Positions 7,160 through 48,361 of a stretch of DNA of 48,396 nucleotides are shown here, in pieces. The notes beneath the pieces were generated by a model that was given only the letters and a program-made list of their open reading frames with translations, was not told the DNA's origin and did no database searches. The translations under genes were made by a program, and so were the position numbers. The stretch's first letter is position 1. Every line of letters starts with the position of its first letter. The stretch is from a virus. The stretch is taken from positions 1-48,396 of IMG/VR virus record IMGVR_UViG_3300037336_000318. One strand, given 5' to 3'.

Positions 7160-7746
7160 TGGTTAGACATAAACTTTTTTCAAAAGGAGAACTTATAAAT
7201 GTACTTATATCAAATAATAGATATAGCAATATAGTGTTTCCAATTAAGGCAATTATTCATGATGTTGAATTTGATGAAAAAATGCCAAGATATCAAATTA
7301 GAATACTTAAATTCTACGATGACTTAGACTTTCTTAAAAAGTATATGTTCGATATGAAATTTGATAGAGCATTTAGTGGAGGTTCAACTTCATTTAGAGT
7401 AGCTCGCCAACGATTTTCAAACCTAAAGGATTTTCAAAATTATATAGATTCTAAATGGGAATCATATCTAATAATAGTTGACTCTGTTATGTGTGTTAAA
7501 ACCCATGCTGAAGTTACATTGTTATATAATAATATACAAGACTTTATTATCGAAAAGACAATAAGGGACCTATATGAACTTACACTTAGGTCAACATATT
7601 CAAAGGGTAAATATTATTATGAAAGCAGAGGAGTATTCGAGGCTCATTTGAAAAAAATGCTTGACAGTAGGGCTGGCACTTCTCATGATTATTTTGATAA
7701 ATTATTATTTAGACCCAAGTCAGTAGACTATGATAATTTAGAGTAG
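7159..7746 (+). CDS. Protein of unknown function
   Basis: A 195-residue protein, last of the six-gene unknown string (5288-7746) before the tail cluster. It starts with a beta-rich half (NVLISNNRYSNIVFPIKAIIHDVEF) and continues with aromatic-rich helices (FLKKYMFDMKFDRAF). No catalytic motif or membrane segment. Position directly before the baseplate genes could make it an assembly factor or chaperone; this is only context. Confidence 0.72.
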   Translation: MVRHKLFSKGELINVLISNNRYSNIVFPIKAIIHDVEFDEKMPRYQIRILKFYDDLDFLKKYMFDMKFDRAFSGGSTSFRVARQRFSNLKDFQNYIDSKWESYLIIVDSVMCVKTHAEVTLLYNNIQDFIIEKTIRDLYELTLRSTYSKGKYYYESRGVFEAHLKKMLDSRAGTSHDYFDKLLFRPKSVDYDNLE

Positions 7747-7758
7747 TCAATATAATTA

Positions 7759-7770
7759 GATATATATAAT
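7759..7770 (+). promoter_or_regulatory. Candidate phage late promoter before the tail cluster
   Basis: GATATATATAAT lies 26 bases upstream of the ATG at 7797 in the only clear gap between the unknown-gene string and the tail genes. It is a variant of the GATATATAA(C/T) element at 15502, 29132, 44035 and 48112. Confidence 0.5.
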
Positions 7771-7796
7771 ATTAAAATAAAAATATCTAATTATTA

Positions 7797-15407: not shown

Positions 15408-15426
15408 ACAAATATATATATACATT

Positions 15427-15458
15427 AATAAACTCCATATTTAAATATGGAGTTTATT
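15427..15458 (+). terminator. Perfect 32-base palindrome, probable terminator
   Basis: AATAAACTCCATATTT (15427-15442) is followed immediately by its exact reverse complement (15443-15458). It lies 20 bases after the S1-like stop. It can fold as a hairpin terminator, with T-rich bases in the right arm and after it. Because it is symmetrical it could also terminate transcription on the opposite strand. Confidence 0.7.
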
Positions 15459-15501
15459 GTTTATATAATGTAGAGTATCTGACATCAATTTATTTATTAA
15501 A

Positions 15502-15511
15502 GATATATAAC
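15502..15511 (+). promoter_or_regulatory. Candidate phage late promoter before the amidoligase-like gene
   Basis: GATATATAAC, 26 bases upstream of the ATG at 15538 and shortly after the terminator palindrome. It is one of the two exact GATATATAAC copies in the window (the other is at 44035). Confidence 0.52.
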
Positions 15512-15537
15512 TAACATAAGTAATATATTAATAGTAA

Positions 15538-16830
15538 ATGAATAATCTCGATGATGCCAATATCTTAAAAAATGCCCTTGTTGGCGTTGAATTTGAATTC
15601 TATTCAAATTTTAGTGCCGAAGAAACAGCTAAAAAAATAGCAATTCTTTTAGGCAAAAAAATTCATGTCGAAATAAAGGCGCACAGCGATTTTGAAGTAA
15701 CACAAGACGCGTTTAAAATAGAACCCGATATGTCAGGTGGAGCAAAACTTCTTGAATTAGTAACAGGTGCACTTCCTTATTATGCAGCACGTTTAATGAT
15801 AATTAATATGTGTGCTTGGATTGATGAAAATGGATACACAAATGACAGAACATCTATTCACTTAAATTTATCATTTGATAAATCAAAAATAGATAACAAG
15901 TATAGGATTTCTAAAATGAACGTTCTTAAATTTATTTTAGATTTTAATGAAGATCAGGTCTTTAATTTCTTTCCTAAAAGAGAAAATTCAGCATACGCCA
16001 AATCAATAAAATTTGTTTTGCCAAAGGAAGATACTTACTTCTTTGATGGTATGCATATTAATTCACATAACTTTATATTTCCAGATACTAAATATTATGG
16101 AATCAATTTTGACAAAAGACATAAAAACTATCTTGAATTTAGATATGTTGGAGGTGCTGACTGGCAAAAGAAAACTACAACCATTTTATATTTAGTAGAC
16201 AGGTTTCTACTACAAATATGGAAGTCTACTGAAAATAACGAATTTAGTAATTTAAATTCGCTAGAGCTTAGGCGTATAGTTGCTAGTAATCAACGGGTTA
16301 TCGATGCTAGAAAGGATTGGAAAACTATTAAGGAAAACTGGAAAGATGTTAAATTTACAGTTGATTTAAATGAAAATCCAAAAATAGTAGATATATATTG
16401 GCCAGTCGTGAAGGACAGAGTAATGCGATTATTCACACACGGAGACCTATTAAAGGGACATATTAATTATGATTCGGACAGCGGTAGAATTCAAGTTGCA
16501 AATGGAAGACTTGAATATTGTGTAGATATTAGAAACTATGAGTTTGTTAATTGTTTTCTTAGAGGAGAATTTACAGAATGTGACATATATGGTTCTGACG
16601 TAAATGGGTCAGATATACATTATTGCAATTTTTATTCAGGTACTCAAATTAATGATTCTAAAATTGACGGATCATATGTTCATGGGTCATGTGTTGCTAA
16701 AGATTGCTATGTATATGGTAAAGGAACATTTAAAGGAACAATGATTGGTGGAATATTTAGAGAAGGAACTTATGATAAAAAACTAGCAAAATTTAATGAT
16801 GTTGAAATTATTAAATCAAAAACAATATAA
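15538..16830 (+). CDS. Amidoligase-like protein with pentapeptide-type C-terminal repeats
   Basis: 430 residues in two parts. The N-terminal part (1-~240) matches the pattern of the putative amidoligase family (glutamine-synthetase-like COOH-NH2 ligases): GVEFEF near residue 17, an acidic DMSGGAKLLELVTG stretch, SIHLNLSF near 117, and NYLEFRYVGG near 200. Enzymes of this fold join a carboxyl group to an amine using ATP. The C-terminal part (~335-415) has short repeats of the type x(C/S)xIxGSxxxGS (ECDIYGSDVNGSDIHYCNF), expected to form a right-handed beta-helix, as in pentapeptide-repeat proteins. It sits between the S1-like gene and baseplate genes, behind its own promoter element. Substrate unknown. 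Confidence 0.72.
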   Translation: MNNLDDANILKNALVGVEFEFYSNFSAEETAKKIAILLGKKIHVEIKAHSDFEVTQDAFKIEPDMSGGAKLLELVTGALPYYAARLMIINMCAWIDENGYTNDRTSIHLNLSFDKSKIDNKYRISKMNVLKFILDFNEDQVFNFFPKRENSAYAKSIKFVLPKEDTYFFDGMHINSHNFIFPDTKYYGINFDKRHKNYLEFRYVGGADWQKKTTTILYLVDRFLLQIWKSTENNEFSNLNSLELRRIVASNQRVIDARKDWKTIKENWKDVKFTVDLNENPKIVDIYWPVVKDRVMRLFTHGDLLKGHINYDSDSGRIQVANGRLEYCVDIRNYEFVNCFLRGEFTECDIYGSDVNGSDIHYCNFYSGTQINDSKIDGSYVHGSCVAKDCYVYGKGTFKGTMIGGIFREGTYDKKLAKFNDVEIIKSKTI

Positions 16831-29162: not shown

Positions 29163-32100
29163 ATGTCTACTATAAATACAAATATTGAAAACAATTCAGT
29201 AGATAGCAAATCCTTTGCTATATTAAGAACTAATCCAAAGTTAACAAGTAATGTAAAGTTACTTGTTAACTCTATTGGTGATTTGTACTTAAGTGCATTT
29301 AAAGCGAACAAGGAACTTTCAAGCATAGAGTATCAAAAGTTCGAAGTTTCTCCATTTGGTAAATATTCATATGATATCTCTAAATTCTTTAGAGACTTAG
29401 CCACTACTTCAATATACCAAACTCTTAGATTATTTGACGACAATGCTGTTTATTCAAGTTATGAATTTCAGTATGAGGATCAATATAATTATGGCGCAGC
29501 CTTTAATTCTACTAAACTATATGACGAACAATACAAAATATTTGCTCCAATATGGTTAGAGAAAAAAGTGCCTAGTAAGTTCGTAATATACAGAGTAGAG
29601 GATGTTGATTATAATTCAAACTACGAAGAAAATACAGTAGGTCAAAATTCTAGAATTTTAGAACTTTTAAAAAAGGCATCAATTGTTAAAACATTTGATC
29701 TGGGAAATTCTTCAAAAATAGGTGAGTATTTAAATAATCACGTTAACGAAAAACTCTTTCCTAAATCTTCGATTAGTATTAACTTTGGCGAGGGTTCGAT
29801 GTCTTCTTTTAATGGAATAGACATTGTTAACGGAGGTTTTGCCACCAAAAGTGAACAGCTTGATAAATATTACACACAAGTAGACTATCCTGAGATATTT
29901 AGTAATGAAATTATAACGAATGGTTTTGAAAGAAATGGTTTAATTTCTGCTAATATAATAAATTTAGAGTTCTTATTTGATGATAATGTCGCTGACGATT
30001 ATAAGATATACAGATATTTTGGAATATATGCAGACGATATTGATGAAGGAACGTTCATGATAGATAATGTAACAAATAAAGGAGAAGTATTTATTAAAGA
30101 TAATAGCTATGCAACATTATACGATTTAAATGATACATCGTTAGTTCCATTCGATATGATTCCATCAGGAAATGATTTTAATATACCTTTTTTAAGATAT
30201 ATTAAAGATAAAGAAGGCCAATATTATAACTTAAACGGAAGTAAGTCAATTCCGAATTATAGAATGTTAGTCGAGTTAAATAAAAGTAAAGAATCACTGT
30301 TTAATGGATTTTCTAGAAACGGCAAAAAAATTACATCAGAATCTATTATTCCAAATCCAAGAGGATTTTACAAACTAACAGTCATAGATACCCCTAGCGA
30401 TAACGATAAAATTTTTATAGGAGATAAAAACGAAATAAAAATATCTGATTACAATTTAGGTGATTATTTAATAATAGCTAGTTCGGCAATTCCAGCAGGG
30501 AGAGCAATTAAAAATAAATTCTCTAGCGTAGGAAGTTTTCAGCAAATTGCAATCGCAATTGCGCAAGCAATTAAGAATGGAGAAATTATAACATATAATG
30601 TTTATGTGTCGGGGCCTTCTATTACAATAGAGGATTATGCTGCAGGTAATAATAGAATGCAAAATGCATTGGGAGTATATAATTCCAATTTAGTTGATTT
30701 TATTGAAGTTACAGGGGGTGAATTAAATAGTATTGGGTTAATAGATTCAATAGTTCCATCTCAAGAAGATATATTACCAACTGATTATGGATTTTTACCT
30801 CTAAATGATTTTGAATTTACAGACACAATTAACAATTCTTCTTATTCTTATTTTTATGGAGGATTTAATGGATATAGTGATAGTACTAATTCATTTGCCA
30901 GCAGTAACTTAATTAAAATTAATAGTGATCTATCAGTAGATAGTAGTTTTAATATTGGAAGTGGAATAGTTGCAACTGTATATAGTACATTTTCTATAAC
31001 AGAGCAACTTGATAAAAAAATAGTAGTGTGTGGATTATTTTCATCTTTCAGTGGAAATACAGTGAGCAATATAGTAAGAATTAATACTGATGGATCGATA
31101 GATAATTTATTTATACAAGGTAGTGGGTTTAATGGCTATACAACAAAATCAGAAATAGATAGTTTAGGCAGAATAATAGTTACAGGTATTTTTAGTACAT
31201 ATAACGGAAATTATTCTAATAAGTTAATAAGGTTAACACCTGATGGTATGTTTGATCCAACATTTAATGTAGGTGATGGATTTAATCAGATTACCGTAGA
31301 TGTTCTTAGCAATCCTGACAATAGTATGTTTATAACGGGATATTTTACAGCATATAAGGGGATAGCAGTTCCTACTGGAATAGTAAAAATACTAGATAAT
31401 GGTGAAATAGATTCATCTTTTAATGGAGGAACCGGTTTTAATGTAGGTAATTTTAAACCTATTCTTATAGATAGAATACAAGGAGAATCTTCTTTTTATG
31501 CATTTGGATATTTTACAACATATAATGGTGTTATCCATAATAGAGCTATAAAATTACAAGATAATGGAGATGTTGACACATCTTTTAATACAGGAACTGG
31601 GTTTAACGATGATGTATATTCGATGTCAATTGTATTCGATGATAAATTACTAGTTACTGGATTATATAGTGAATATAATGGGATAATTTCATATGGAACC
31701 ATAGTATTAAATAGAGACGGTACTGTATTTTTTGCTAATACGGTTCCTGATTCTACATTAGTAATTATTGGAGATAATGTATACCGTCAAGTGTTCGGTG
31801 AGTATATGTATAGAGTTTTTGCCACTGACTCTTCTTTTTTTCAAGATACTAAATTTAGCGAGTGGGATATTTACTCAATGGTAGGAGGTTCTAGAGAAGG
31901 TCAATCCATATTAGTAAAGTCAAGTGAAATCGGAAACGTAAATGTTGGAGAATGGGTAAAGCAAAAAAATAAAGATAATTATATACAGATTATTGAAATT
32001 GAAAAAGATCCTATTATTAGAGATTTTTATAGAATTATTTTAAATTCTGCGGTTTCTGTTTCAAACGATAACGTTTTTGAGATATATGATGTCTATAAAA

Positions 32101-34667
32101 CTTCACATGGAAGATTTGCTGCGTATGAATTTAAAGACTTTGATTTTGATTTTTATTCTACACGTAATTCAGATCTAGGTGATTTATCCTTAGATGTTTA
32201 TTCACATCCTAATAAAAAACAAACAACATATGCTGGACTAAACTCTGTTTTAGGAAATGAATTAATCACGGATGAAATAATTTTAGAAAATTCAGTAAAT
32301 AATGAATACGACCGACTACGAGAAAATAGTTTGAAGGAGACTTCTTTAAGAAGTAGAATAGTTCCAACTATTAATAAGTTTAAATTAAAAGACGCATTAA
32401 ACGCAAGAAACTTGCCATATATATTGAACGCATATGAAGCGTTTGGTGAAGACAATTTATCGCCTAATATTGAAATAGATTCAAATAGAAATGTTGAATT
32501 CATGAATATGGAGCATTTTTTAATTAATAAAATACCTAGTAGTCTGCGAAATAATTCAATAGAAAATGGGTTTGATTTTAATAATTATGTTGACTTCGCT
32601 GATGATGGAGGATTGACTATTCAAAAATTAAAAAGTACAGATTTTGATTATTTTAAAAGTCATTTTAATTGGAACGGATATTATAATTCAGCTGATCAAA
32701 TATGGCATGACAATACCGCAAAGGTGTTATGGAGCAAATTTAATATAGGGAATTTAGAAAAGAATTCTTCTACTGTGTTTAGAGGGCTTAGATATGAATA
32801 TTTAAAAAGAAAAGAAAATGTAAGTGAATTTCCAACAGAGTTCATAAATGATTCAAATATTAATAATTATAAGTTTGGTGTTGTGTTATCATATTATAAA
32901 GACAGAGATATTGATGACAACATTATCACTAATAATTCTGTAAACATTAAGTCTATTAAAAATGAAAAGTTTGAGTTTATATGTATTTATATAACAGTAA
33001 ATGTAGTAGATAATGATGTATCGGATATTGATAGACATTTATTATATACATTAAATGATATTAAGCTAGAGGAAGAAATTATCGACGTCGAAATTCCATT
33101 TTGGATTGATTTTTCACTAAATCACGCTGAATTTAGTAATAGTTATCCTAACCGACATACTGTAATTAGATCTTCCGAAATTACACCATACCCTGCTGAA
33201 TTTACAAAATACATAACAGTAGACGAGAATGGAGATTTTTCTTGGATTTATTTCGAAGCAGAAGGGGATACTTATGCAGTAAAGGTGATAAATGTAATTG
33301 ATGATACTCAAATAACAATAGATGGTATTCCATGGAAATTTAATACAGAAACGGGAAAGGCTGAAGGTGTGAGAATGAATGTAGAAGATATTCAGCTAAT
33401 TCCTCTTACTAATTTTAAATATTATAGAGGAGGAAAAAATGGATTTAATGTTCTATTAAATGAAATTAATGCATATAAATTTGCTAACAAGTTTAATAAA
33501 TTTAAAAACATAGAGTATATTACGATAGAAGAAAATGGTAATATAATTAACAACGCATACTCGTTGTCGATAGAATCCGGTGTTAATATAATTAAACCTT
33601 CAATTGTTAATGCCACGAGCGACCCTGATAAACCAAGGGCGTATCAATTATTCTCCGGTGAAATTGGAAGCATAATATCAGATAGAAAGGATGGAGGATA
33701 TCTTACCATATTACGAAGAATGAACGGTGAATATGATCCTTTATTTAATAGTGTAATTACATTTGGGGATGGATATTCTTTTAATAAAGTTAATATTAAC
33801 TCAACCGAAAGAAATATATTAATATATAAAAAATTCAATGATCTTGGAATAGCGTTTGATTCATATAAAAACAATAAAGAAGATTATGGATTTATAAATA
33901 ACTATTTTTATCACAAGGTGAATGATGAAAATTCTAAAAACATATTAAAATTGTCGCGTACTTCTGATAAGTTGCCAATATATCCTTTAATTGGAGAAAT
34001 AGCAATTGATAAAAAGAAGCTTAACCTTTTTAAATCTAAGTATTCAAGTAATTTTTTTACAAAAGCGCTGCCAGGTGGATTTATAAAATTAGTAAGCGGA
34101 ACTCTAAGTCCAATAGAAAAAAAGAACTTTATGGCTTCAACTATTATGAAAGTTAAAGAATCATATGATATTACTCGATATACTAATAAAAAGGAAAATA
34201 CAATTGAGACGCTTGATAACATTAGATTGAATAGTCTAAATACAAATTCAATTCATTGGTATGAAGATAATACGCGAGTGTTAATGGACGTTTATTTGCC
34301 TTTTGCTATTTTGCAGGAATTAATAGAAGATGGAATTCAAGAGAGTTTTGGAAAGTATGTTGTGCCTTCATTATCGTATGGTAATGAAACTACATTAGAT
34401 AACGATTTAAAGGTATATACTAATGGAAACATAATTCCACGTTTCATAATAGATTTAATAGATATTTATGGAATTAAGGGAAAGGATTTATCAACATCAT
34501 TCGTATCGGTTGATAGCGTTGATGATTTAAATAAAAACGGATTTGTTCAACTAACTAATTTTAACATTTTAAGTTATCAGAAGGACGGTTTAAGTTTTAG
34601 ATTAATATATAATAAAATAATTGGATACTCATATAATTTTAAAATCCATGTTAAAATACAATCATAA
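29163..34667 (+). CDS. Giant tail fibre/adhesin with delta-60 repeat (beta-propeller-like) section
   Basis: 1834 residues, the largest gene in the window. Residues about 555-855 contain five copies of a 51-55-residue repeat ending in patterns such as DPTFNVGDGFN, DSSFNGGTGFN and DTSFNTGTGFN, preceded by V(T/C)G-F-Y-G-strands and DGS-D turns. This is the pattern of delta-60 repeats, which are beta-propeller-like and found in bacterial surface proteins. Before it come unidentified N-terminal domains with aromatic-rich segments (YSSYEFQYEDQYNYGAAF); after it come about 980 residues of mixed, Asn/Asp/Ile-rich sequence. The propeller section is a candidate receptor-contact domain. It starts a new transcription unit (element at 29132). 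Confidence 0.75.
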   Translation: MSTINTNIENNSVDSKSFAILRTNPKLTSNVKLLVNSIGDLYLSAFKANKELSSIEYQKFEVSPFGKYSYDISKFFRDLATTSIYQTLRLFDDNAVYSSYEFQYEDQYNYGAAFNSTKLYDEQYKIFAPIWLEKKVPSKFVIYRVEDVDYNSNYEENTVGQNSRILELLKKASIVKTFDLGNSSKIGEYLNNHVNEKLFPKSSISINFGEGSMSSFNGIDIVNGGFATKSEQLDKYYTQVDYPEIFSNEIITNGFERNGLISANIINLEFLFDDNVADDYKIYRYFGIYADDIDEGTFMIDNVTNKGEVFIKDNSYATLYDLNDTSLVPFDMIPSGNDFNIPFLRYIKDKEGQYYNLNGSKSIPNYRMLVELNKSKESLFNGFSRNGKKITSESIIPNPRGFYKLTVIDTPSDNDKIFIGDKNEIKISDYNLGDYLIIASSAIPAGRAIKNKFSSVGSFQQIAIAIAQAIKNGEIITYNVYVSGPSITIEDYAAGNNRMQNALGVYNSNLVDFIEVTGGELNSIGLIDSIVPSQEDILPTDYGFLPLNDFEFTDTINNSSYSYFYGGFNGYSDSTNSFASSNLIKINSDLSVDSSFNIGSGIVATVYSTFSITEQLDKKIVVCGLFSSFSGNTVSNIVRINTDGSIDNLFIQGSGFNGYTTKSEIDSLGRIIVTGIFSTYNGNYSNKLIRLTPDGMFDPTFNVGDGFNQITVDVLSNPDNSMFITGYFTAYKGIAVPTGIVKILDNGEIDSSFNGGTGFNVGNFKPILIDRIQGESSFYAFGYFTTYNGVIHNRAIKLQDNGDVDTSFNTGTGFNDDVYSMSIVFDDKLLVTGLYSEYNGIISYGTIVLNRDGTVFFANTVPDSTLVIIGDNVYRQVFGEYMYRVFATDSSFFQDTKFSEWDIYSMVGGSREGQSILVKSSEIGNVNVGEWVKQKNKDNYIQIIEIEKDPIIRDFYRIILNSAVSVSNDNVFEIYDVYKTSHGRFAAYEFKDFDFDFYSTRNSDLGDLSLDVYSHPNKKQTTYAGLNSVLGNELITDEIILENSVNNEYDRLRENSLKETSLRSRIVPTINKFKLKDALNARNLPYILNAYEAFGEDNLSPNIEIDSNRNVEFMNMEHFLINKIPSSLRNNSIENGFDFNNYVDFADDGGLTIQKLKSTDFDYFKSHFNWNGYYNSADQIWHDNTAKVLWSKFNIGNLEKNSSTVFRGLRYEYLKRKENVSEFPTEFINDSNINNYKFGVVLSYYKDRDIDDNIITNNSVNIKSIKNEKFEFICIYITVNVVDNDVSDIDRHLLYTLNDIKLEEEIIDVEIPFWIDFSLNHAEFSNSYPNRHTVIRSSEITPYPAEFTKYITVDENGDFSWIYFEAEGDTYAVKVINVIDDTQITIDGIPWKFNTETGKAEGVRMNVEDIQLIPLTNFKYYRGGKNGFNVLLNEINAYKFANKFNKFKNIEYITIEENGNIINNAYSLSIESGVNIIKPSIVNATSDPDKPRAYQLFSGEIGSIISDRKDGGYLTILRRMNGEYDPLFNSVITFGDGYSFNKVNINSTERNILIYKKFNDLGIAFDSYKNNKEDYGFINNYFYHKVNDENSKNILKLSRTSDKLPIYPLIGEIAIDKKKLNLFKSKYSSNFFTKALPGGFIKLVSGTLSPIEKKNFMASTIMKVKESYDITRYTNKKENTIETLDNIRLNSLNTNSIHWYEDNTRVLMDVYLPFAILQELIEDGIQESFGKYVVPSLSYGNETTLDNDLKVYTNGNIIPRFIIDLIDIYGIKGKDLSTSFVSVDSVDDLNKNGFVQLTNFNILSYQKDGLSFRLIYNKIIGYSYNFKIHVKIQS

Positions 34668-34670
34668 TTA

Positions 34671-36950
34671 ATGGCTACTATTAATATTAAAGAATTATTT
34701 GCAAGTGACTTGAATCCAAATGAGGCCGTATGGTGGTCAATTGATAAAATTAGTAAGATTAATTATAATTTTAGTCAAATGACAAATGGAGGGGTTGCAG
34801 GACCTCGTGGTATAATAGGATATGACGGTAATCCTGGCCATATGGGAATGCAAGGAGTTAATGGATATCAAGGAGTTAATGGATATCAAGGGGTTAAAGG
34901 ATATTCAACTGAGGATGTATGGACATATAGATTAGAAGCAAATAGTGGAATTTCTTATTTAATACCTAAATATAATGTAAATAACCTTCAAAATATAAGT
35001 CCAGTAACACTTAGGATTGGATTTGATGTAAACAATCCAGAATATAATAGAGCTTCATCCTCTAGGGAATATGTTGTAATTGGTAATGTTGCATCTTCAG
35101 GTTCATTAGGTCCTTCAAAAATTAACTTAAGATTACAGAGCGAAACTAAAGTTTCTGACTTTAAATTAGATGTAAATATAATAAACAGCACTGAACATCC
35201 AACACTACATATTGGAAAAATAGTAACAGCGGATGTCGGATTCAAGCAGATTATAATATCTAATAATACTATAATTAAATCAGTAGGAGATACTCTTGAT
35301 ATTCTAAACACATTAAGTCATAGTATACGTGATTTAAATATAGTAATCGGTAATACTATTCGTGAAAGTTTTGCTGAATTAAGTAGATTTCCTGATAAAT
35401 TCTCAAGGGCAAACGCTGAGTTTCAGTTTAATGTAAACGCAACTGAAGGAGATGTATTAGTTTCAAGCGATGCAAATGGTACCGTTGCATGGAAAGATAA
35501 AAACTCTCTGTTTGGTAGTTTTCCAATAGGATCTATTATTTCAATTAGAGAAAATGAGTTTAACTCATCTAATTTTTATCTTAATGAAGTAATATCACAG
35601 AGTGGAAATCCATTACCAGTATTGCGTAATAGGTATGGAAGAGGAATTCCTAATACACAATATGCTGGATGGTATTTGTGCAATGGATTATCATGGAAAA
35701 TAGAAAATGGTGTTAACTCATATTCAACACCAAATCTAAATTCTTTTCAATATACTATATCTTCTAATGAAGGAGATCAAAACGAGATTGTATTAGGAGG
35801 AGACGGTACTTCTAGTATCATAGCAGGATACGATATATCATTAGAAGCGGCTGAATCCAATGGAGTATATAATGTTTCTTTTGATAATGTGTTTCAAAGT
35901 AATGATTACGCTATTTCAGCAAATGACACCTTTGAGTTTGGACTTCAAGATGGAATGTCAAACACAGATGTATACATTAGTAAAATGATTCATATTGTTT
36001 ATTTAGAAAATGATAATTTAATATGGTCAGTGTCTGACAATGTATCAGATCCGCCTGTCACTAATAATATATCGTTGGGATATAGTTTTAATAATGATTC
36101 GGGCGAAATATGCGAAGTAAGCTCATCTATTGAATACACATGGAACGGAGAACCAAACACTTGGAGCACCTTTGATGAAACATTACAGGAAACATATCTA
36201 TATAATGCCGGAACAACAAATTTTGCACCTCTTGGATACTATATAGATTTAACAGATTACTCTGTGCGATTTTGGAATCCTAATAGTCTTACCTTTTCCA
36301 GCGCATCATATTGTGTTTTTGAACAATATGAAACTACTTCTCTAGGATATTCAACTCGAGTTGATGGAATTAATGGCAATTATTCTTCTCTTCCTGGATT
36401 AAATTATTTTATAGATACTGTTTTATTTGAAAGCGCCACTGTATTGCGAAATAACGATAATTCTTCAGTAAACGCTACCAGGGGATGGTATCGTAGTACT
36501 TTTAATGGAAAAAGAAGATATTGGAACGGAAGTCAGTTTGAAGGTGTTATTTTTATTAAAAATTTTATTATTTCAATATCAGTGGGAAATGGAGTAACTG
36601 GATTTAATAATGTTACTAATACTCTGTCGGCATGTGGTGCATTTAGATTGTCTAGAGAATCATATGTAGAGTACGATACTAGTATAATAGCTGATCTTGT
36701 ATTTGTACATGATAACTCATTATTAGTATATGTTCCTATAAATTATGCCAGGATATTAGATGAAACGCCTGGACTAGTTAGCGTAATTAGCCAACCAGCA
36801 CCTGGAAGCGCTTATCCATTTAAAAGAATTTATTTAAATGACACGATTAATGGTAGTTTAGAAAACAAGAATGCATTAATTAACGCATTCGATGGTACTA
36901 TTAATTTTCCTAATGAATGTGTATCTGATCAGGAAAACCCACAGGAATAA
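34671..36950 (+). CDS. Collagen-like tail fibre protein with tail-collar domain (first copy)
   Basis: 759 residues. A short N-terminal attachment segment (SIDKISKINYNFSQM, 23-37) is followed by 13 Gly-X-Y triplets at residues 41-79 (GPRGIIGYDGNPGHMGMQG...), which should form a collagen-like triple helix. Around 285-360 the sequence FPIGSIISI, then GWYLCNGLSWKIENG and YSTPNLNSF, marks a phage tail-collar domain. The rest is strand-rich (aromatic and Asn/Ser) with WYRSTFNGKRRYWNGSQFEG near 605. Its neighbour (36985) has the same order of domains, so the two are paralogues. It starts three bases after the giant fibre. Confidence 0.82.
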   Translation: MATINIKELFASDLNPNEAVWWSIDKISKINYNFSQMTNGGVAGPRGIIGYDGNPGHMGMQGVNGYQGVNGYQGVKGYSTEDVWTYRLEANSGISYLIPKYNVNNLQNISPVTLRIGFDVNNPEYNRASSSREYVVIGNVASSGSLGPSKINLRLQSETKVSDFKLDVNIINSTEHPTLHIGKIVTADVGFKQIIISNNTIIKSVGDTLDILNTLSHSIRDLNIVIGNTIRESFAELSRFPDKFSRANAEFQFNVNATEGDVLVSSDANGTVAWKDKNSLFGSFPIGSIISIRENEFNSSNFYLNEVISQSGNPLPVLRNRYGRGIPNTQYAGWYLCNGLSWKIENGVNSYSTPNLNSFQYTISSNEGDQNEIVLGGDGTSSIIAGYDISLEAAESNGVYNVSFDNVFQSNDYAISANDTFEFGLQDGMSNTDVYISKMIHIVYLENDNLIWSVSDNVSDPPVTNNISLGYSFNNDSGEICEVSSSIEYTWNGEPNTWSTFDETLQETYLYNAGTTNFAPLGYYIDLTDYSVRFWNPNSLTFSSASYCVFEQYETTSLGYSTRVDGINGNYSSLPGLNYFIDTVLFESATVLRNNDNSSVNATRGWYRSTFNGKRRYWNGSQFEGVIFIKNFIISISVGNGVTGFNNVTNTLSACGAFRLSRESYVEYDTSIIADLVFVHDNSLLVYVPINYARILDETPGLVSVISQPAPGSAYPFKRIYLNDTINGSLENKNALINAFDGTINFPNECVSDQENPQE
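34854..34907 (+). repeat. 18-base tandem repeat in collagen-like region
   Basis: Two exact copies of GGAGTTAATGGATATCAA (34854-34871 and 34872-34889) are followed by a diverged third (34890-34907). Each copy encodes two Gly-X-Y triplets (GVNGYQ), so gain or loss of copies would change the rod length without breaking the frame. Confidence 0.8.
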
Positions 36951-36965
36951 TATTAATATATAGAA

Positions 36966-36973
36966 TATAAATA
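36966..36973 (+). promoter_or_regulatory. T4-type late promoter sequence TATAAATA, possible promoter
   Basis: An exact TATAAATA lies 11 bases upstream of the ATG at 36985 in a 34-base gap. This is the T4 late-promoter sequence, but it differs from the ATATATAA element used elsewhere in the window, and in such AT-rich DNA it may be chance. Confidence 0.25.
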
Positions 36974-36984
36974 TAGTACATGTA

Positions 36985-39294
36985 ATGATAATAAATCTAA
37001 AGCAAGTAAGTAATGCAGACGCCGACAATATTAAACTAGACAAAATTAATTATAATTTTGATCAACTAGTTGCAAATGGAGGAGGTCCTCAGGGTCCAAG
37101 GGGAATTAAGGGTGAACTTGGCCCACAGGGTGTCACTGGCAAAAGAGGATTTCAAGGAGATAGAGGATTTCAAGGAACCCAAGGGCCTTCAGGTGATAAT
37201 AACGAAGTATTTTGGAAAAATATACAAGGAGATCCTACTGTGCCAACTACTGACACTTTAGTTCCGATATATAATGGACCTGCTAATTCACCTGAAAATA
37301 CATATCCACCAATAGTAAGCGTTGGTTTTTTACCAGGAGATGTTCAATATGATTCAACACCTAATTTTCCAAATGGAAATCTGCCGTATCAATGGATTAT
37401 AAATAGAAAAAATCAATTTTCTTCTAATTTAAGATTCACAAGTGATGATGTCACGAATCATTGGGTTGATTTCACAATGAAACTTAATAGTTTAAATTCT
37501 GTGAATGAATTTACTATGGAGTTTAAATCTCAAGATGCAAATATAGAAAATACTTCATTTATATTATACGCAGAAGACCATATATTTAAATCTAATATAA
37601 ATGGTGATATTTTGCTAAAAATAGGACAAAATATTACTGAGTATAATACAGATACTATATTTAATTCAAAGGTAACATTTAACAATGTATTAGTTATAGA
37701 AGGTACTACAGAGTATCCTGCATCACCTGATAAAGTAGCAGTATCCTCTGATTCTGAAGGGACTATAGTATATAAAAGTGTTAAAGAGCTAGGCGGCACC
37801 GTTCCATTCGGTACTATTATTTCAGTACTTCCTTCTATTTTTAGTGATAATACTAAATTTATAAATAATGAAATAATAGATACGACACAGTTTCCTGATC
37901 TTCCAATTCAAATAAGAGTAGGTTCAGGTATTGGTAAGTATAAAGGATGGTATCTATGTAATGGACAACAATGGATCGGAGATACGGAAAGTCACATTGT
38001 TCCAGATTTAAATTCATTTAGTTACAGTATAGAAGATAATTCGATGTCGAATGATCCAAACAGTCAAGGATATTCATTTAGCACAAACACATTTGTGCAT
38101 TTAGTAGGAGGTGCAGATACTACAATGGTGGCTAACGAGGATCAAACATATAGTAATGGGATTTACAATGTCAATTCAGTTATTAGTACTAGTGATGATT
38201 TAGTAGGAATAGTACAAGGTGGTACTATATATAAAATAAAAAGACTTCCTCAGATCATATATTTAGATGAGGTTGATTTATACTGGATGTCAGCCGGAGA
38301 TGGGCAGGCTCCTATTTCCAACACAACATTTAGATTGACAGATACTAATTCTTCAGCAGGTAACATAAGCCCTAATCCACAGAATATAGCTTCTACGAGT
38401 AACCAACAGGGTTCATCATACCAGATAAGTGCTATTGTTAATGCACCTTCTGGATATTACTGGTCATCTGTACCTGTAATAGGGTTTCCTTCATATGTTT
38501 CAGATGTCGTTGAAACTTTAGGTAATGGTACATATCCTAGTGTGTTGAACTTGGCAATATATGTTAGCTCTCAACCTGAAGATCAGACTATTATTCCATT
38601 AAGTGTTGATACATCTAGTATTTTACTGCCAGTTCCAAATATTAATTTAATATTGCATAGAAATTCTAATCCAACTAATTCAACATTAACACCAGTACAG
38701 GATGAAAATATAATATATGATTCTCAAACTGGATATACGTTTAACATAATAGTAGACGCCGCTAGTGGATACAGATTTTACAGTGTAGGTGATGTTGATA
38801 TGTCAGGATCAACTGTTCCACCTGGTTCTACATTTACAGTGAATAGCCAATCATTATCTAATTCAAACAAAACACTTACTAAAAATATAACAATAACAGT
38901 TCCAGTTGGCACACCCACGGGAAGTCAATTCGAATATAATGCAATAGGAGGCCCTATTGAAATCCCATGTGTTACTGAAAGTTTAGATACAACTAATTTC
39001 ATAGGAGAATGTCTTGGAAATTCAACAAATGCGTCATATAGTACTTTAACGTTACAATTGTCAGCCATCACTAATGAAAATGTAGATATCACGATTGAAA
39101 TAGCTGAGGCCAGTTGTTCAGCGTCGAGTACCGATTATGTTACGTTAACTATTCCAGCAGGAAGCACGTCAGTACAATATAGTAACCTATCATCAGACAA
39201 CGTGGATTGTGGACAGGGACAATGTGAACCACAATACAGAGAGTATATTGCAATTACAGCAATTAATCCTCCAGATTACATGATATGCAGTTAA
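36985..39294 (+). CDS. Collagen-like tail fibre protein with tail-collar domain (second copy)
   Basis: 769 residues. The start LDKINYNFDQLVANG is followed by 13 Gly-X-Y triplets at 34-72 (GPQGPRGIKGELGPQG...). A tail-collar domain lies around 270-350 (VPFGTIISV, GWYLCNGQQWIGD, VPDLNSFSY). The C-terminal ~330 residues are Ser/Thr/Pro-rich strands with four to six Cys near the end (CSASSTDY, NVDCGQGQCEPQY), perhaps an Ig/Calx-beta-like tip. Domain order equals that of the 34671 gene, but the tips differ, as expected after duplication and change of host-contact domains. Confidence 0.82.
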   Translation: MIINLKQVSNADADNIKLDKINYNFDQLVANGGGPQGPRGIKGELGPQGVTGKRGFQGDRGFQGTQGPSGDNNEVFWKNIQGDPTVPTTDTLVPIYNGPANSPENTYPPIVSVGFLPGDVQYDSTPNFPNGNLPYQWIINRKNQFSSNLRFTSDDVTNHWVDFTMKLNSLNSVNEFTMEFKSQDANIENTSFILYAEDHIFKSNINGDILLKIGQNITEYNTDTIFNSKVTFNNVLVIEGTTEYPASPDKVAVSSDSEGTIVYKSVKELGGTVPFGTIISVLPSIFSDNTKFINNEIIDTTQFPDLPIQIRVGSGIGKYKGWYLCNGQQWIGDTESHIVPDLNSFSYSIEDNSMSNDPNSQGYSFSTNTFVHLVGGADTTMVANEDQTYSNGIYNVNSVISTSDDLVGIVQGGTIYKIKRLPQIIYLDEVDLYWMSAGDGQAPISNTTFRLTDTNSSAGNISPNPQNIASTSNQQGSSYQISAIVNAPSGYYWSSVPVIGFPSYVSDVVETLGNGTYPSVLNLAIYVSSQPEDQTIIPLSVDTSSILLPVPNINLILHRNSNPTNSTLTPVQDENIIYDSQTGYTFNIIVDAASGYRFYSVGDVDMSGSTVPPGSTFTVNSQSLSNSNKTLTKNITITVPVGTPTGSQFEYNAIGGPIEIPCVTESLDTTNFIGECLGNSTNASYSTLTLQLSAITNENVDITIEIAEASCSASSTDYVTLTIPAGSTSVQYSNLSSDNVDCGQGQCEPQYREYIAITAINPPDYMICS

Positions 39295-44346: not shown

Positions 44347-45255
44347 ATGGAAAATTTTGACATTTTTAACTTAGGAGTAGCTGACGTTGAAACACATGAA
44401 ACGCAAGCTTCAACAGGAAGTGATTTATTTAAACCAACAGCCGATGACGGAAAGGATGGAACATATAAAGCAATGATTCGCTTTGTACCAAATCCAACTA
44501 ACCCTAGGAACTCATTGGTAAAAAAATACGTACACTGGCTAACTAATGCAAGTGGAGATGGCAAGATGGTAGATTCACCATCCACTATTGGAGAAAAATG
44601 CCCAATCGCTGATGTATTTTTTAAATTACGTAAAAGTGATTCAGCAGTTGATCGCAAGATGAGCGAAAAACTAAAAAGACGCGAGCAATATTTTGCATTG
44701 GTAAAAATTATTAAAGACCCTCAAAGTCCAGAATTAGAAGGACAATACAAGGTATTTAAGTTTGGTTACAAGATCAAAGAAAAAATTGATGAAGAGTTAA
44801 AACCAGCATTTGGTGAGCCAACTCAAGTTTTTGATTTATTTGAAGGAAAAAACTTTGAACTAATTATAACAAGACAAGGAGAATTCAATAACTATGATAA
44901 GTCAAAGTTTTCTTCAAGTACTAGTTCAATCGATATGAAAGGTACTCCGGCTAAGAGAGAAGCAGCAACAATGACCGCTATTAAAGCAGAATTAGATACT
45001 GCACCTAGTTTAACACCTTACGAATATAAGCCATGGGATGGAGAAATGCTTGATTTTGTAAACGGTATTCTTAGAAGCTATTTAAACCCAGGTGATTCTA
45101 TGAACTCTGTTACTTCAAAACAGGCCGCTAAAAAAGTACCAGCAAAATCAGAACAAGGAGGAGATTTTGAATTTCCAAAAGAAATGGTAGGAACTCCAAG
45201 CAATGTAGATTCTTCAGATGACTTAGACTCATTCTTGAATGATCTTGAACTATAG
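44347..45255 (+). CDS. 32: Single-stranded DNA-binding protein gp32
   Basis: 302 residues, the same size as T4 gp32 (301). The DNA-binding core is recognisable: MIRFVPNPTNPRNSLVKKYV, then EQYFALVKIIKDPQSPELEG, FKFGYKIKEKIDEEL and QGEFNNYDKSKF. The acidic C-terminal tail DSSDDLDSFLNDLEL ends like T4 gp32 (LDDLLNDL), the part that recruits UvsY, primase loader and other partners. The T4 zinc site is not kept: CPVC is replaced by CPIA here and the other Cys ligand is absent. It is followed by primase, UvsY and UvsW, its expected partners. Confidence 0.93.
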   Translation: MENFDIFNLGVADVETHETQASTGSDLFKPTADDGKDGTYKAMIRFVPNPTNPRNSLVKKYVHWLTNASGDGKMVDSPSTIGEKCPIADVFFKLRKSDSAVDRKMSEKLKRREQYFALVKIIKDPQSPELEGQYKVFKFGYKIKEKIDEELKPAFGEPTQVFDLFEGKNFELIITRQGEFNNYDKSKFSSSTSSIDMKGTPAKREAATMTAIKAELDTAPSLTPYEYKPWDGEMLDFVNGILRSYLNPGDSMNSVTSKQAAKKVPAKSEQGGDFEFPKEMVGTPSNVDSSDDLDSFLNDLEL

Positions 45256-45280
45256 TATTAAATAAATAATTAATAAAATT

Positions 45281-45312
45281 AAAGGCTAAGTTTAAAACTT
45301 GGCCTTTTTTTC
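45281..45312 (+). terminator. Rho-independent terminator after gp32
   Basis: A stem of about 12 pairs including one T-G wobble (45281-45292 with 45296-45307) is followed by a T-run reaching 45311. It lies between the gp32 stop and the primase start, so gp32, needed in large amounts, can be expressed separately. Confidence 0.8.
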
Positions 45313-45325
45313 GTATATAATACAT

Positions 45326-46450
45326 ATGAAAGGTCAAAAAATAACAGAAGAACTGAAGTCAAAAATCAGAAGCTTGTTTAAGCAAGTAGTGTCAAAGGCG
45401 CATCATGACTCTAGTAAACAAATGATTAAGGAAATGCCAGGTAGAATAACGATGGCGTGTCCACATTGCGGTGACTCTACCACAGATCTTAAAAAGAAGA
45501 GAGGTAATTTATATTGGGACACATTGCAATACCACTGTTTTAATTGTGGTATTCACTCAAATGCATATCAATTACTTAAAGACCATCATGTTAAATTTAA
45601 AAATACAGATGACTCTATTCAAATCATAGACTATATCCAAGAACATAAGATGGAAGTCAATGATATTGAAGTATTAGAACATGATATTTTTAAATTAACA
45701 TATGATTTATCACCTACTCGTATTGAATTATCTCAAATGTTTGGTTTTAAGGAAATAGTACCGGGAGATTCAGCATACTTTTATTTAAAAAATAGATTGC
45801 TTTCACATCGTCTTGATAGATTTATGTATTCCCCTAAGGATAAAAGAATTGTAGTATTAAATTTGGCGCCTAATGACAAGGTTATTGGATTTCAAACAAG
45901 GTCACTTAATAAACAATCTAACTCAAGGTATTTAACATACGATTTAGAAAAGATATATCAAGAGACTAAACGTGAGATGATCCTGAGTGAAGAAGAACTT
46001 GTTAGTGTTAAGAAATTATCAACACTATTCGGAGTAATGCTTGTTGATTTTCAAAGAGAAGTAACAATGTTCGAAGGACCTATTGATGCTATGTTTATTT
46101 CAAATTCAATAGGACTTGCAACAGCAGGAAGATCAACAACTGAATTCGATGAAATACCAACTATTAGATATATGTTTGATAATGATAGTACAGGTAAGCG
46201 TAAAATGATGGAAAAGCTTAAAAGAGGCAAGAAAATATTTACATGGGAAAGATTCTTTAAAGAAACTAAAATAGATTTACAACTAGAAAATTTCCTTAAA
46301 AATATTGATAAAAATGAAAGAGATAAATATCCTAAACAAATAGGTGATCTAAATGATTTAGTTATTGCAGCATGGTTAACACAAAACAAATGTTTGTCTG
46401 ACTTAGATAAATACTTTTCAGATTCTAAACTTGACGCATATTACCTATGA
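45326..46450 (+). CDS. 61: DNA primase (gp61/DnaG type)
   Basis: 374 residues. The N-terminal zinc ribbon has Cys45, Cys48, Cys71 and Cys74 (ACPHCGDST and HCFNCGIHS). The TOPRIM catalytic part follows: TMFEGPIDAMF (Glu near 250), GRSTTEFDEIP, and MFDNDSTGKRKM (Asp near 283). It makes RNA primers for lagging-strand synthesis with the phage helicase. The ATG at 45326 is chosen: the frame is open to a TTG at 45299, but that lies inside the gp32 terminator. Its leader GTATATAATACAT resembles the phage promoter element. The last 4 bases overlap the next gene. Confidence 0.9.
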   Translation: MKGQKITEELKSKIRSLFKQVVSKAHHDSSKQMIKEMPGRITMACPHCGDSTTDLKKKRGNLYWDTLQYHCFNCGIHSNAYQLLKDHHVKFKNTDDSIQIIDYIQEHKMEVNDIEVLEHDIFKLTYDLSPTRIELSQMFGFKEIVPGDSAYFYLKNRLLSHRLDRFMYSPKDKRIVVLNLAPNDKVIGFQTRSLNKQSNSRYLTYDLEKIYQETKREMILSEEELVSVKKLSTLFGVMLVDFQREVTMFEGPIDAMFISNSIGLATAGRSTTEFDEIPTIRYMFDNDSTGKRKMMEKLKRGKKIFTWERFFKETKIDLQLENFLKNIDKNERDKYPKQIGDLNDLVIAAWLTQNKCLSDLDKYFSDSKLDAYYL

Positions 46451-46665
46451 TAAAAAAAGAATTTTTACAAATGATCGATGAAGAATTCGAAGAATTCGAA
46501 AATGAAAAAAACAAGAGAAAGAATATTAAAATGATTATCGATTTTAATTCCGATGTTGTTATTCATTCCTCTAAGGAATTTACAATGACAAAGCCAAAAC
46601 TTAAAGCCAAGTTTACTAGTTCTGTCTATATCAAGAAAAACAATAAAGGAAACTCACTTTTTTAA
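46447..46665 (+). CDS. Small charged protein between primase and uvsY
   Basis: 72 residues with an acidic start (FLQMIDEEFEEFENEK), a short strand region (IDFNSDVVIHSSKEFTM) and a basic end (KPKLKAKF, KKNNKGNSLF). It overlaps the primase stop by four bases and precedes uvsY by 11 bases, so it is co-expressed with replication proteins. Family not recognised. Confidence 0.65.
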   Translation: MIKKEFLQMIDEEFEEFENEKNKRKNIKMIIDFNSDVVIHSSKEFTMTKPKLKAKFTSSVYIKKNNKGNSLF

Positions 46666-46676
46666 AATAAAATATA

Positions 46677-47105
46677 ATGATAGAGGCTAAAGATAAAATT
46701 CAACAGTTAGATGAATATTTAAACAAACAGAGAGAAGATTGGACTTTAAAAATCAAAGAACTAACTGAAGATTTAAAATTAGGTAACAATCTACAGGATG
46801 TAAGTGCATATACATTAAGCTATCGCCAAATAATGGTAGAACATCTAGCAGTTATGGGAAATAGAATTAAATCCCAGAAGGCAGTAGTCGATAAAAGGTA
46901 CAAAGAAAAATGGATAGAGTACTTTACATACGATTACAAACTTACCGATAAAATGAAAGAAAGATTTATCGAAGCAGATATTTCTGACGAAACGACAATT
47001 CTAGAGTTATTAACTATCCAAAAGAGTTTCTTTGAAGGATCTATTAAAACTTTAGATAATATGGGCTTTGCAATAAAGAATCGCCTTGATATTAGTCGTC
47101 TATAA
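46677..47105 (+). CDS. uvsY: Recombination mediator UvsY
   Basis: 142 residues (T4 UvsY is 137). It is helical and charged throughout. The C-terminal stretch FFEGSIKTLDNMGFAIKNRLDI matches the T4 pattern in which an Ala/Ile helix is followed by RGFAIKHIQDM. UvsY helps load the UvsX recombinase onto gp32-coated DNA. Its position directly before uvsW repeats the T4 uvsY/uvsW neighbourhood, which supports the call although overall similarity is limited. Confidence 0.8.
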   Translation: MIEAKDKIQQLDEYLNKQREDWTLKIKELTEDLKLGNNLQDVSAYTLSYRQIMVEHLAVMGNRIKSQKAVVDKRYKEKWIEYFTYDYKLTDKMKERFIEADISDETTILELLTIQKSFFEGSIKTLDNMGFAIKNRLDISRL

Positions 47106-47121
47106 AAAGATTTAAATAGAT

Positions 47122-48105
47122 TTGATTTTAACATTAACTGAAGATAATCAATTTTTAAGAATTGACGATGCTACTGAACTAGAGTTAGAGCAGATTAAAA
47201 TATCTCTAACAAAAAGAATTGACAGCTGGAGGTTTCACCCTTTAGTAAAGCGTGGAATATGGGATGGATATGTATCATACATTAAAGATGATAAATGGAT
47301 TCCTGCCGGACTCTGGCAATATGTCATGTCAATTTGCAAGGAGTATAGATTTGAACTTAAAATTGAAGGAATAAAAAGATTAATAGACCCTAATATTAAT
47401 CCAGAAGTATTTGAAAAATGGTCTTTAGAATTCTTTAAAGACTCTGAAAAATTTACACCACGTGATTACCAGATTGAGGCTGCTTTTAATATTTTAAAGT
47501 TTAGAAAATGTTTAGCTGAACTTGCAACTTCAGCTGGTAAAACACTAATAAGTTTTTTAACAGTAGCATATATACTAGAACATAACAAGGCAACTAAAAT
47601 ACTATTTATAGTTCCTAACGTTTCATTAGTAGTACAGGCTCATGAAGATTTTCACGATTACAATTACAAAAACAAAATAGATCTAAGAATTCAACAAATA
47701 TTTGCTGGTCAAGATATTAAACCTAATAAAAATATAATTATAGGTACTTATCAATCTTTAATTAAAAAGGATGCTGCATACTTTTCAGAATTTGATGCAG
47801 TAATAGTTGACGAGTGTATACATCCCGATACTCTAATAAAAATGAGCAATGGCTCCTATAAAAAGGTAAATGAAATAAAGGCAGGAGAATATGTTAAAAC
47901 AACTAATGATAAAACTTTAGAAATTGAAGATAGAGAAGTTGAATTTGTATATCATGATTTATCGAAAGGAAATCAAATGTTCGAGTTAGAAATGGAAGAT
48001 GGATCTATTATTAAAATAACAGGAAATCATAGAGTTAAATTAACATCAGGGATATATAAGAGAGTGGATCAATTATCATATACCGATGATATATTTTGTA
48101 TATAA
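47122..48105 (+). CDS. uvsW: UvsW helicase N-terminal half fused to a split-intein N-fragment
   Basis: 327 residues. Residues 1-110 are the UvsW N-terminal domain (SWRFHPLVKRGIWDGY), then come PRDYQIEAAF, Walker A ATSAGKT (135-141), FIVPNVSLVVQ and motif II start AVIVDE (226-231). At Cys232, which replaces the Cys of the DECH box, the sequence becomes an intein N-half of 96 residues. Block A is CIHPDTLIKMSNGSYKKVNE and block B is the TGNH near 300-303. It ends DDIFCI and a TAA at 48103-48105. The remaining helicase motifs are absent. The start is TTG at 47122: no in-frame ATG exists before the conserved part, and a TAA lies nine bases upstream. A complete helicase would need trans-splicing with a C-half made elsewhere. 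Confidence 0.88.
   Translation: MILTLTEDNQFLRIDDATELELEQIKISLTKRIDSWRFHPLVKRGIWDGYVSYIKDDKWIPAGLWQYVMSICKEYRFELKIEGIKRLIDPNINPEVFEKWSLEFFKDSEKFTPRDYQIEAAFNILKFRKCLAELATSAGKTLISFLTVAYILEHNKATKILFIVPNVSLVVQAHEDFHDYNYKNKIDLRIQQIFAGQDIKPNKNIIIGTYQSLIKKDAAYFSEFDAVIVDECIHPDTLIKMSNGSYKKVNEIKAGEYVKTTNDKTLEIEDREVEFVYHDLSKGNQMFELEMEDGSIIKITGNHRVKLTSGIYKRVDQLSYTDDIFCI
47815..48102 (+). other. Split-intein N-fragment (IntN), 96 residues
   Basis: It starts with Cys (TGT 47815-47817), has the Hint-domain pattern PDTLIKMSNGSYKKVNEIKA, a strand pair around MFELEMEDGSIIKITGNHRVKL with the block B Thr-x-x-His, and an ending YTDDIFCI like other N-inteins before the endonuclease or split point. No homing-endonuclease region and no C-terminal His-Asn plus following nucleophile occur before the stop or in the 291 bases after it. 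Confidence 0.85.
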
Positions 48106-48142: not shown

Positions 48143-48361
48143 ATGCAAAACCCTGAATTCGATTTAACAGAATCTGAAGTATCTCTTACATTTCAACGAT
48201 TAGTGCAAACTGATGGAAATGGATCATATTTTGATGGAAAAGGTAATAGCCTGCCAATAGGTACGCCATTATATTATCAAGTTAATCAGGCATCAAATTT
48301 AATACAAACACAAAAGATACTAGCAAAATATATTTTAGAATCATATGGCAGCGACAATTGA
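48143..48361 (+). CDS. Small protein, possibly structural, function unknown
   Basis: 72 residues from the ATG at 48143. The frame is open a little further upstream, but that part overlaps the uvsW stop and the promoter element. The sequence (FDLTESEVSLTFQRLVQTDG, then GNGSYFDGKGNSLPIG) has Gly/Asp turns like phage fibre or head-decoration proteins, and a helical end. It has no intein features, so it is not the missing C-half. The next gene overlaps its last 17 bases. Confidence 0.65.
   Translation: MQNPEFDLTESEVSLTFQRLVQTDGNGSYFDGKGNSLPIGTPLYYQVNQASNLIQTQKILAKYILESYGSDN

Follow-up and report, generated by a model that had tools for sequence, protein, structure and literature searches.

A T4-like phage uvsW gene that is probably fractured by a split intein, with a tail-fibre cassette between its halves

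The window analysed here, a stretch of 48,396 bases that makes up the whole of IMG/VR virus record IMGVR_UViG_3300037336_000318, ends just beyond an open reading frame (ORF) in which the helicase UvsW breaks off midway and gives place to the N-terminal fragment of an intein (IntN). Comparison with related viral contigs leads us to conclude, with considerable confidence, that this T4-like phage has a fractured uvsW, the separately translated halves of which would be rejoined by protein trans-splicing. Two ORFs, the intein pieces that they carry, the conservation of these pieces and the absence of any other uvsW from four related records were observed directly; trans-splicing is the most likely reading of two such half-genes. 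Fractured genes with split inteins are already known. The N-half is laid out in the window as follows:

47122-48105, plus strand: UvsW N-half ORF, TTG start, 327 residues
47122-47814, plus strand: UvsW N-extein, 231 residues, comprising the UvsW_N domain and the first helicase lobe as far as the Walker-B sequence VDE
47815-48102, plus strand: IntN, 96 residues, opening with Cys1 (CIHPDTLIK), assigned by TIGR01445 and family alignments
48019-48030, plus strand: block B (TGNH), inside IntN
48103-48105, plus strand: TAA stop that ends the N-half

Pfam and NCBIfam searches matched the N-terminal part of this ORF to ResIII (3e-20), to DEAD (8e-13) and, at 6.1e-5, to UvsW_N, for which the 23.8 bits fall 1.5 bits short of the cut-off of 25.3. 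From residue 232 onward the ORF matched TIGR01445 (intein_Nterm; 2.7e-7, 31.5 bits, above the cut-off of 24.5), and Pfam Hint and Intein_splicing gave matches below their cut-offs. Cys1, block A and a TGNH block B, the features of the N-fragment of a class 1 split intein, are all present. A first-pass annotation of this DNA had described just such a UvsW-type N-half, with a switch into an intein at Cys232, a 96-residue IntN with block B and a stop, and the ORF reading and profile searches bear this description out. Its further statement that no C-half lies in the final 291 bases agrees with our reading of the window end and, because the window is the whole record, any C-half further downstream lies outside it.

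The missing half, which had been predicted to lie elsewhere in the genome, is present in longer relatives. Relatives were taken from one scan of viral contigs (best 80 of 133 loci) and from another (best 80 of 196); such pattern scans are not exhaustive, and the loci are denoted here by L numbers. The same N-half occurs at 98-99% identity in L002 (a record of 161 kb), L003 (170 kb) and L006 (61 kb), and a version at 59% in L022 (64 kb). From 47122 to its end the window is identical to L002 at 1274 of 1275 bases. The L002 N-half stops at 10984 and, 4.27 kb further on, an ORF at 15259-16194 encodes 311 residues that begin with a 39-residue intein C-fragment (IntC) ending in NYFANGLNVSN and continue with CHKAK and the second helicase lobe (Helicase_C, 2.9e-7). 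Block F/G, the C-terminal Asn, Cys+1 and a separate ORF, as expected of an IntC, are thus found in L002, outside the window. The corresponding C-halves are:

L006, 15256-16191: IntC and UvsW C-extein
L003, 12441-13376: IntC and UvsW C-extein
L022, 15339-16274: IntC ending in NYIANNQNVSN, followed by CHQAK

The forecast of an IntC of 35-45 residues ending in His-Asn and followed by Cys-His was right in length and in the Cys-His, but the fragment ends in Ser-Asn. Together the halves have the features of the UvsW class (UvsW_N and two SF2 helicase lobes, ResIII/DEAD in the N-half and Helicase_C in the C-half), and their relatives are annotated as uvsW; the helicase motifs are divided so that neither half alone holds the full set. 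A search with intact UvsW returned only the two pieces from each of the L002, L003, L006 and L022 records, and the intact copy elsewhere that the first-pass annotation had named as telling against a fracture is absent from them. Because L002, L003 and L006 stop at the identical place, an assembly slip at the TAA codon, which had been raised as a concern, is very unlikely.

This arrangement suggests the following course of events. The N-half protein (UvsW residues 1-231 plus IntN) and the C-half protein (IntC plus UvsW from Cys-His) would be translated separately, and IntN and IntC would associate into a single intein of the Hint fold. The intein would then cut itself out and join the UvsW halves inside the Walker-B motif, between DE and CH, to give a helicase of about 500 residues; at the junction it would carry Cys in place of the Thr seen in the intact relatives that were read. 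When the fracture arose, the gap probably contained a homing endonuclease gene, as it still does in most fractured relatives. In the window lineage this endonuclease would have been lost or replaced, and the tail-fibre (receptor-binding) cassette that now fills the gap may have entered by recombination between a fractured-uvsW phage and a phage in which the cassette adjoined uvsW.

Inspection of the insertion site shows that 142 intact uvsW loci align across it with a gap of exactly 0 and contain neither IntN nor IntC, and that IntC is present at all 16 loci (10 records) having IntN and both extein halves; outside those 16 there are one locus with the N-extein only and the cut end of the window, with N-extein and IntN. 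The figures 142 and 16 count loci rather than contigs, some of which occur two or three times; 68 distinct intact UvsW proteins were collected later. The site lies within Walker B, where the intact relatives that were read have VDE followed directly by THKAK and the window lineage has VDE, an intein running from Cys to Asn, and CHKAK. Of 29 intein loci, 28 have Cys1, the C-terminal Asn and Cys+1 (L180 ends before IntC), and TGNH occurs in 20 of 20 aligned IntN rows. The ratio of nonsynonymous to synonymous change (dN/dS) of IntN and IntC spans 0.02-0.32 over the 11 piece comparisons that gave a ratio, including 0.02-0.19 for intein pieces in L002/L004, L004/L170, L002/L031 and L031/L177. Between L002 and L022, at 57-58% extein identity, all four pieces are open with dN/dS of 0.17-0.32 (exteins 0.22, IntN 0.32); for L002 against L006 the values are 0.00-0.01 in the exteins and 0.04 in IntN. 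Distant pairs are close to saturated in synonymous differences, and some near pairs give no ratio. Judged by these values, the intein pieces are mostly under constraint.

The fold of the intein was modelled on a relative that carries it in one piece. L174 and L175 have the intein in cis, in a single 639-residue uvsW ORF (7320-9239) with no endonuclease; the IntC part of L174 opens with Met where the split forms have their start codon (LEDYF-MKIKSIKKID), and this cis form may represent the ancestral state or a split intein that has fused again. Its IntN is 65% identical to that of the window. The L174 model, built with 18 aligned IntN rows, reached a pLDDT of 88.2 and a pTM of 0.81 (five models spanned 53.9-88.2). 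Alignment of the model with VIA-align gave Z 21.3 with a root-mean-square deviation (rmsd) of 1.5 over 133 aligned residues for 1mi8, Z 19.9 (rmsd 2.0, 135 aligned) for NrdJ-1 (8ubs) and Z 19.0 (rmsd 1.7, 124 aligned) for gp41-1 (6riz), and Foldseek also returned inteins and Hint domains. By this model, the L174 intein has the Hint fold.

Several points weigh against trans-splicing in the window lineage, and some of them lend themselves to other explanations. ORFs and intein pieces alone were read, and it is from these that association and splicing are deduced; the modelled intein is that of L174 and not the window's own pair; and the completeness of the L002, L003, L006 and L022 records is not stated. 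Alignment of the window with its relatives also reveals a breakpoint at the start of uvsW: over 45121-47111 the alignment has 100 columns at which the window departs from L002, 49 for L006 and 11 for L007, and from 47112 on the window differs from L002 at one column and from L006 and L007 at many. The 47111/47112 switch could mark recombination or chimeric assembly and, because of the latter, the window's own continuation is taken from L002. This mosaic switch, the ending of the window inside the gap and the origin of L002 and L022 in one metagenome (by their names) would also suit an artefact in which the N-half and the fibre genes were misjoined during metagenome assembly. We find that explanation barely credible, since four contigs from three metagenomes by their names (3300036670 twice, 3300037295 and 3300037293) share the order N-half, cassette, C-half, and L022 is about 40% different in protein sequence.

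A further point is that the penultimate intein residue in the window lineage is Ser rather than the His usual in class 1 inteins; S16, a Salmonella phage with a fractured uvsW, has His, and L174, L175 and L193 have Ala. Splicing inteins without a penultimate His have precedents, the His being an assisting residue according to an excerpt of PMC4031507, and because some splicing inteins do without it, Ser is compatible with membership among split inteins. The Ser might nevertheless slow splicing, and the halves could instead be genes in pieces that fold non-covalently into a working helicase, with the intein ends as a dimerisation clamp, as in the split ribonucleotide reductase of phage Aeh1. 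There is precedent for a phage gene that a homing endonuclease has split and that functions as two peptides (Friedrich 2007, cited in an excerpt of PMC10448857), and in L004/L005 and L178 uvsW has a second break at which no intein was recognised and no intron family found. We consider such non-covalent assembly unlikely: a clamp needs none of the three residues (Cys1, C-terminal Asn and Cys+1) that are kept in all but the cut locus, and a break in Walker B would put a catalytic motif in two chains.

Finally, the IntN sequences of L002 and L003 differ by amino-acid changes (proportion of nonsynonymous differences, pN, 0.009) with zero synonymous changes, and that short comparison gives no sign of constraint. 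Such a pattern is what would be seen if uvsW were dead in the window lineage, with both pieces decaying and another enzyme serving as helicase; a large deletion of gap genes in L003 and the loss of any endonuclease homologue from the records (by a search run without a positive control) point the same way. Decay is highly improbable given the strong constraint on the exteins, with dN/dS of 0.00-0.02 for L002 against L003 or L006 and 0.22 against L022, the IntN ratios of 0.04 (L006) and 0.32 (L022) against L002, the open frames in all four contigs, and the persistence of the plan at 57-58% extein identity. A working gene rejoined by trans-splicing thus remains our preferred explanation.

Downstream of the stop, the window enters the gap between the halves:

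48143-48361, plus strand: first cassette gene, 72 residues
48345-48396, plus strand: start of the second cassette gene (69 residues in L002), cut by the contig end

Homologues of the first gene head the cassette in L002, L006 and L022 and, at a distance from uvsW, in L085, L087, L090 and L092. What had been taken for unrelated genes are the first genes of a tail-fibre cassette, and the promoter-like element noted beside them finds no support, sigma-70-like sites across the whole L002 gap being at chance level (25 found, 25.7 expected). The T4-type late promoter motif TATAAATA occurs 10 times in L002 against 7.0 expected, and we make no regulatory claim for either kind of site. The 4.3 kb gap of L002 holds six ORFs, of 72, 69, 202, 693, 118 and 213 residues. 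The 693-residue ORF matches the tail-fibre family phrog_7809 (2e-11), and the 202-residue ORF matches a phrogs family of unknown function (2e-6) and, weakly, tail fibre (4e-4); phrogs returned nothing for the 72-, 69-, 118- and 213-residue ORFs, and Pfam nothing for any of the six. Neither database matched an endonuclease family among them, and a search for relatives of the L004 endonuclease, run without a positive control, came back empty for the L002, L003, L006 and L022 records and for the window. The window lineage accordingly lacks the free-standing homing endonuclease that 13 relatives have between their halves.

Modelling of the 693-residue protein (pLDDT 84.8, pTM 0.63) gave a solenoid of helices that ends in a beta C-terminus. 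Among solved structures the model is matched best by 7qlr, the receptor-binding protein of a C. difficile phage (E 9.6e-9, with a TM of just 0.14-0.20); many further matches are to the armadillo repeats of beta-catenin, and the viral matches include tail fibres. With TM values of 0.11-0.21, as a bent solenoid would give, these model matches support the general class only. The same fibre is found at about 70-88% identity in L085, L087, L088, L090, L091 and L092, with no uvsW or intein in flanks of up to 8 kb, and the order of 66-, 67-, 202- and 693-residue genes is kept in L085, L087, L090 and L092. A scan with the 202-residue gene gave at least 25 loci, five of them with longer matches (L208-L212), and again no uvsW or intein in the available flanks. 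Near the fibre gene in L085, L087, L088 and L090-L092 there are also what appear, by reading alone, to be GIY-YIG- or HNH-like homing endonuclease genes.

The cassette also occurs next to unbroken uvsW genes. In L123, the intact uvsW of which is 81% identical to that of the window, a homologous cassette (with 112- and 213-residue genes at 59% and 49% identity) lies between uvsW, which it follows directly, and the same next gene, and L024 and L025, likewise intact, show its beginning. These three of the 142 loci are a lower bound, many loci ending early; the other mapped intact loci (L008, L020, L026, L043, L096 and L027) have no cassette at that place. The cassette can therefore adjoin an intact uvsW, and in the window lineage it sits between the halves.

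Comparison of the four records indicates that parts of the locus have moved separately. L002 and L022 are 58% identical in the N-extein, 59% in IntN, 72% in IntC and 57% in the C-extein, and their gap genes are at 58, 65, 69, 54 and 58%, but the 693-residue fibre is at 85%; between L002 and L006 the exteins are at 99-100% and the fibre at just 85%. From these contrasts we conclude that the fibre gene was exchanged or replaced within the gap separately from its surroundings. Most of the cassette is gone from L003, which retains both uvsW halves. In an extein tree, L002, L003 and L006 fall among intact uvsWs (L096, L009) and L022 branches well outside them. On this tree the cassette type requires two changes, by transfer or by loss in the intact lines; this placement speaks against simple vertical descent of the arrangement. 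The inteins of L004 and L170 group together (95/91), and their exteins lie beside different intact uvsWs. As their IntN pN of 0.053 is also lower than that of the N-extein (0.183), the reverse of L002/L004 (IntN 0.197, N-extein 0.112), we infer that the intein itself moves between uvsWs.

We have limited our use of the tree to the L004/L170 contrast and the nesting of L002, L003 and L006. Several rows have long branches, the exteins of L004 and L178 are shortened by a second break, L178 has extra N-terminal residues, and the cut made in L205 is off by one residue. For its intact rows, 26 were taken from the 68 distinct proteins that a motif filter had supplied, together with Rhizobium phage Y68 and Acidovorax phage ACP17; L189, L194, the near-duplicates L005, L032, L083 and L175, the cut L180 and nine loci of a second helicase were left out. 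Y68 and ACP17, which had ranked high as relatives, both turned out to have an unbroken uvsW with no intein.

A bolder and distinctly tentative possibility is that the uvsW gap acts as a protected slot for a host-range (receptor-binding) cassette. The split intein would make inserts harmless, recombination or homing at the conserved uvsW ends would swap the tail fibres as a unit, and loss of the slot would be punished since only the full pair gives UvsW. This proposal, which draws on fibre mosaicism in a few contigs, has our low confidence.

The fractured uvsW belongs to a wider family. Scanning with the IntN alignment turned up 34 loci, of which five (L195-L199) are another Hint protein and the other 29 all have the junction of DE with the intein Cys. 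Thirteen of the 29 are uvsW-like and carry a homologous endonuclease gene between their halves, four are of the fibre-cassette type (the contigs of L002, L003, L006 and L022), two are the cis forms L174 and L175, and one (L180) is cut before IntC. The remaining nine (L179, L181, L182, L183, L185, L186, L187, L188 and L191) pair an endonuclease with a different helicase broken at the same Walker-B position; Helicase_C_2 was found in both members scanned, L179 and L185, and reading of its cysteines suggests a RAD3/DinG-like enzyme. Among the 13, L171/L172 and L031/L173 are near-identical pairs and L194 shows just 30 N-half residues. Homology of the gap endonucleases by tblastn extends to 13 of 13 uvsW-like and nine of nine second-helicase loci, the frame in L184 being in two pieces; those of L004, L031 and S16 match phrog_15427, and those of L031, S16, L177 and L178 weakly match a Pfam TnsA-like domain.

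Named phages with a fractured uvsW are Salmonella S16 and SEA1 and Proteus PM2, the public annotation of which gives only helicase pieces and a hypothetical protein; in Prevotella phage Lak-B4, an IntN was seen with an endonuclease match downstream. With the L174 intein as query, 26 records of a phage collection gave matches, of which 14 are S16-like, PM2 or Lak-B and the remaining 12 include nine from Campylobacter, most matches there being annotated as ribonucleotide reductase. An IntN-like match of 40% also lies at 123825-124115 of PQ819873 (Streptococcus phage vB_SagM-GXN1), with no annotated feature beneath it.

In three relatives the uvsW C-half is broken again before motif V by a 318-residue ORF (L004 10467-12621, L005 11999-14153, L178 2799-4947), which phrogs identifies in L005 as an HNH endonuclease. 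The piece upstream of this second break has a conserved 43-residue tail; on the downstream side, IVASY and a stop precede the restart of the frame. The idea that this tail in L004/L178 is an intein remnant was dropped as unsupported: six alignments scored 44-53 against shuffle maxima of 46-56, one exceeding its maximum. No group I intron or other RNA family scored above gathering thresholds in L002, L003, L022, L004, L178, L123 or the window.

Dassa and colleagues reportedly described, in 2009, fractured genes with split inteins in eight gene types. The window lineage resembles these in that a conserved enzyme gene of phage DNA metabolism is broken by a split intein, and 13 of its 29 relatives, as well as S16, have an endonuclease between the halves; it differs in that the gap holds a tail-fibre cassette and no endonuclease, and in that the host gene is uvsW. 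We know of no description of a fractured gene whose gap contains virion genes but lacks an endonuclease. The first-pass annotation knew of no uvsW case, and we found no paper on a uvsW split by an intein, although the 2009 list of eight gene types could still contain it; cases are nonetheless already present in the public records of S16, SEA1, PM2 and Lak-B4. These phages share with the window lineage the gene, the Walker-B site and a related IntN (43% identity for S16), and after the N-half they have an endonuclease-like gene where the window lineage has fibres; S16 and PM2 also end the intein in His-Asn before Cys, whereas the window lineage has Ser-Asn. The split inteins gp41-1 and NrdJ-1 have an IntC of about 40 residues and have been shown to splice. 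They (6qaz/6riz and 8ubs) have the Hint fold predicted here by the L174 model, but are 25-26% identical to modelled L174 and interrupt other host genes.

Two further systems share parts of this arrangement. The DNA polymerase B of Pseudomonas jumbo phage MIJ3, as described in an excerpt of PMC6892783, is an intein-split phage gene with a homing endonuclease gene between the halves; it is a different gene, with an HNH endonuclease and a Ser1 intein. SegE homing at inh/uvsW in T4, according to an excerpt of PMC2988022, likewise involves a homing endonuclease that targets the uvsW region, but SegE is free-standing and the gene is unbroken and without an intein. Set beside these, the uvsW site offers a series of states at one position (intact, intein in cis, split intein with endonuclease, and split intein with a virion cassette and no endonuclease), which makes the origin of split inteins, and their persistence after loss of the mobile engine, directly testable. 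It shows that ordinary phage genes can be housed in the midst of a gene that is probably trans-spliced, which ties a host-range module to a replication gene, and it contributes a natural split intein whose penultimate residue is Ser.

Elsewhere in the window, 1837-2060 and 2891-2989 have many short matches, among the matches listed, in the 161- and 170-kb relatives; they are single-copy in the window and appear to be dispersed repeats. A 403-residue protein with S1 RNA-binding domains (PF00575, 1.7e-21), encoded at 14196-15407, resembles ribosomal protein S1. Three very large virion-type proteins of 1834, 759 and 769 residues are encoded within 29163-39294: the first has DUF5122 beta-propeller repeats, the second a weak collagen match, and the third a Gly-rich N-terminus that looks similar by eye.
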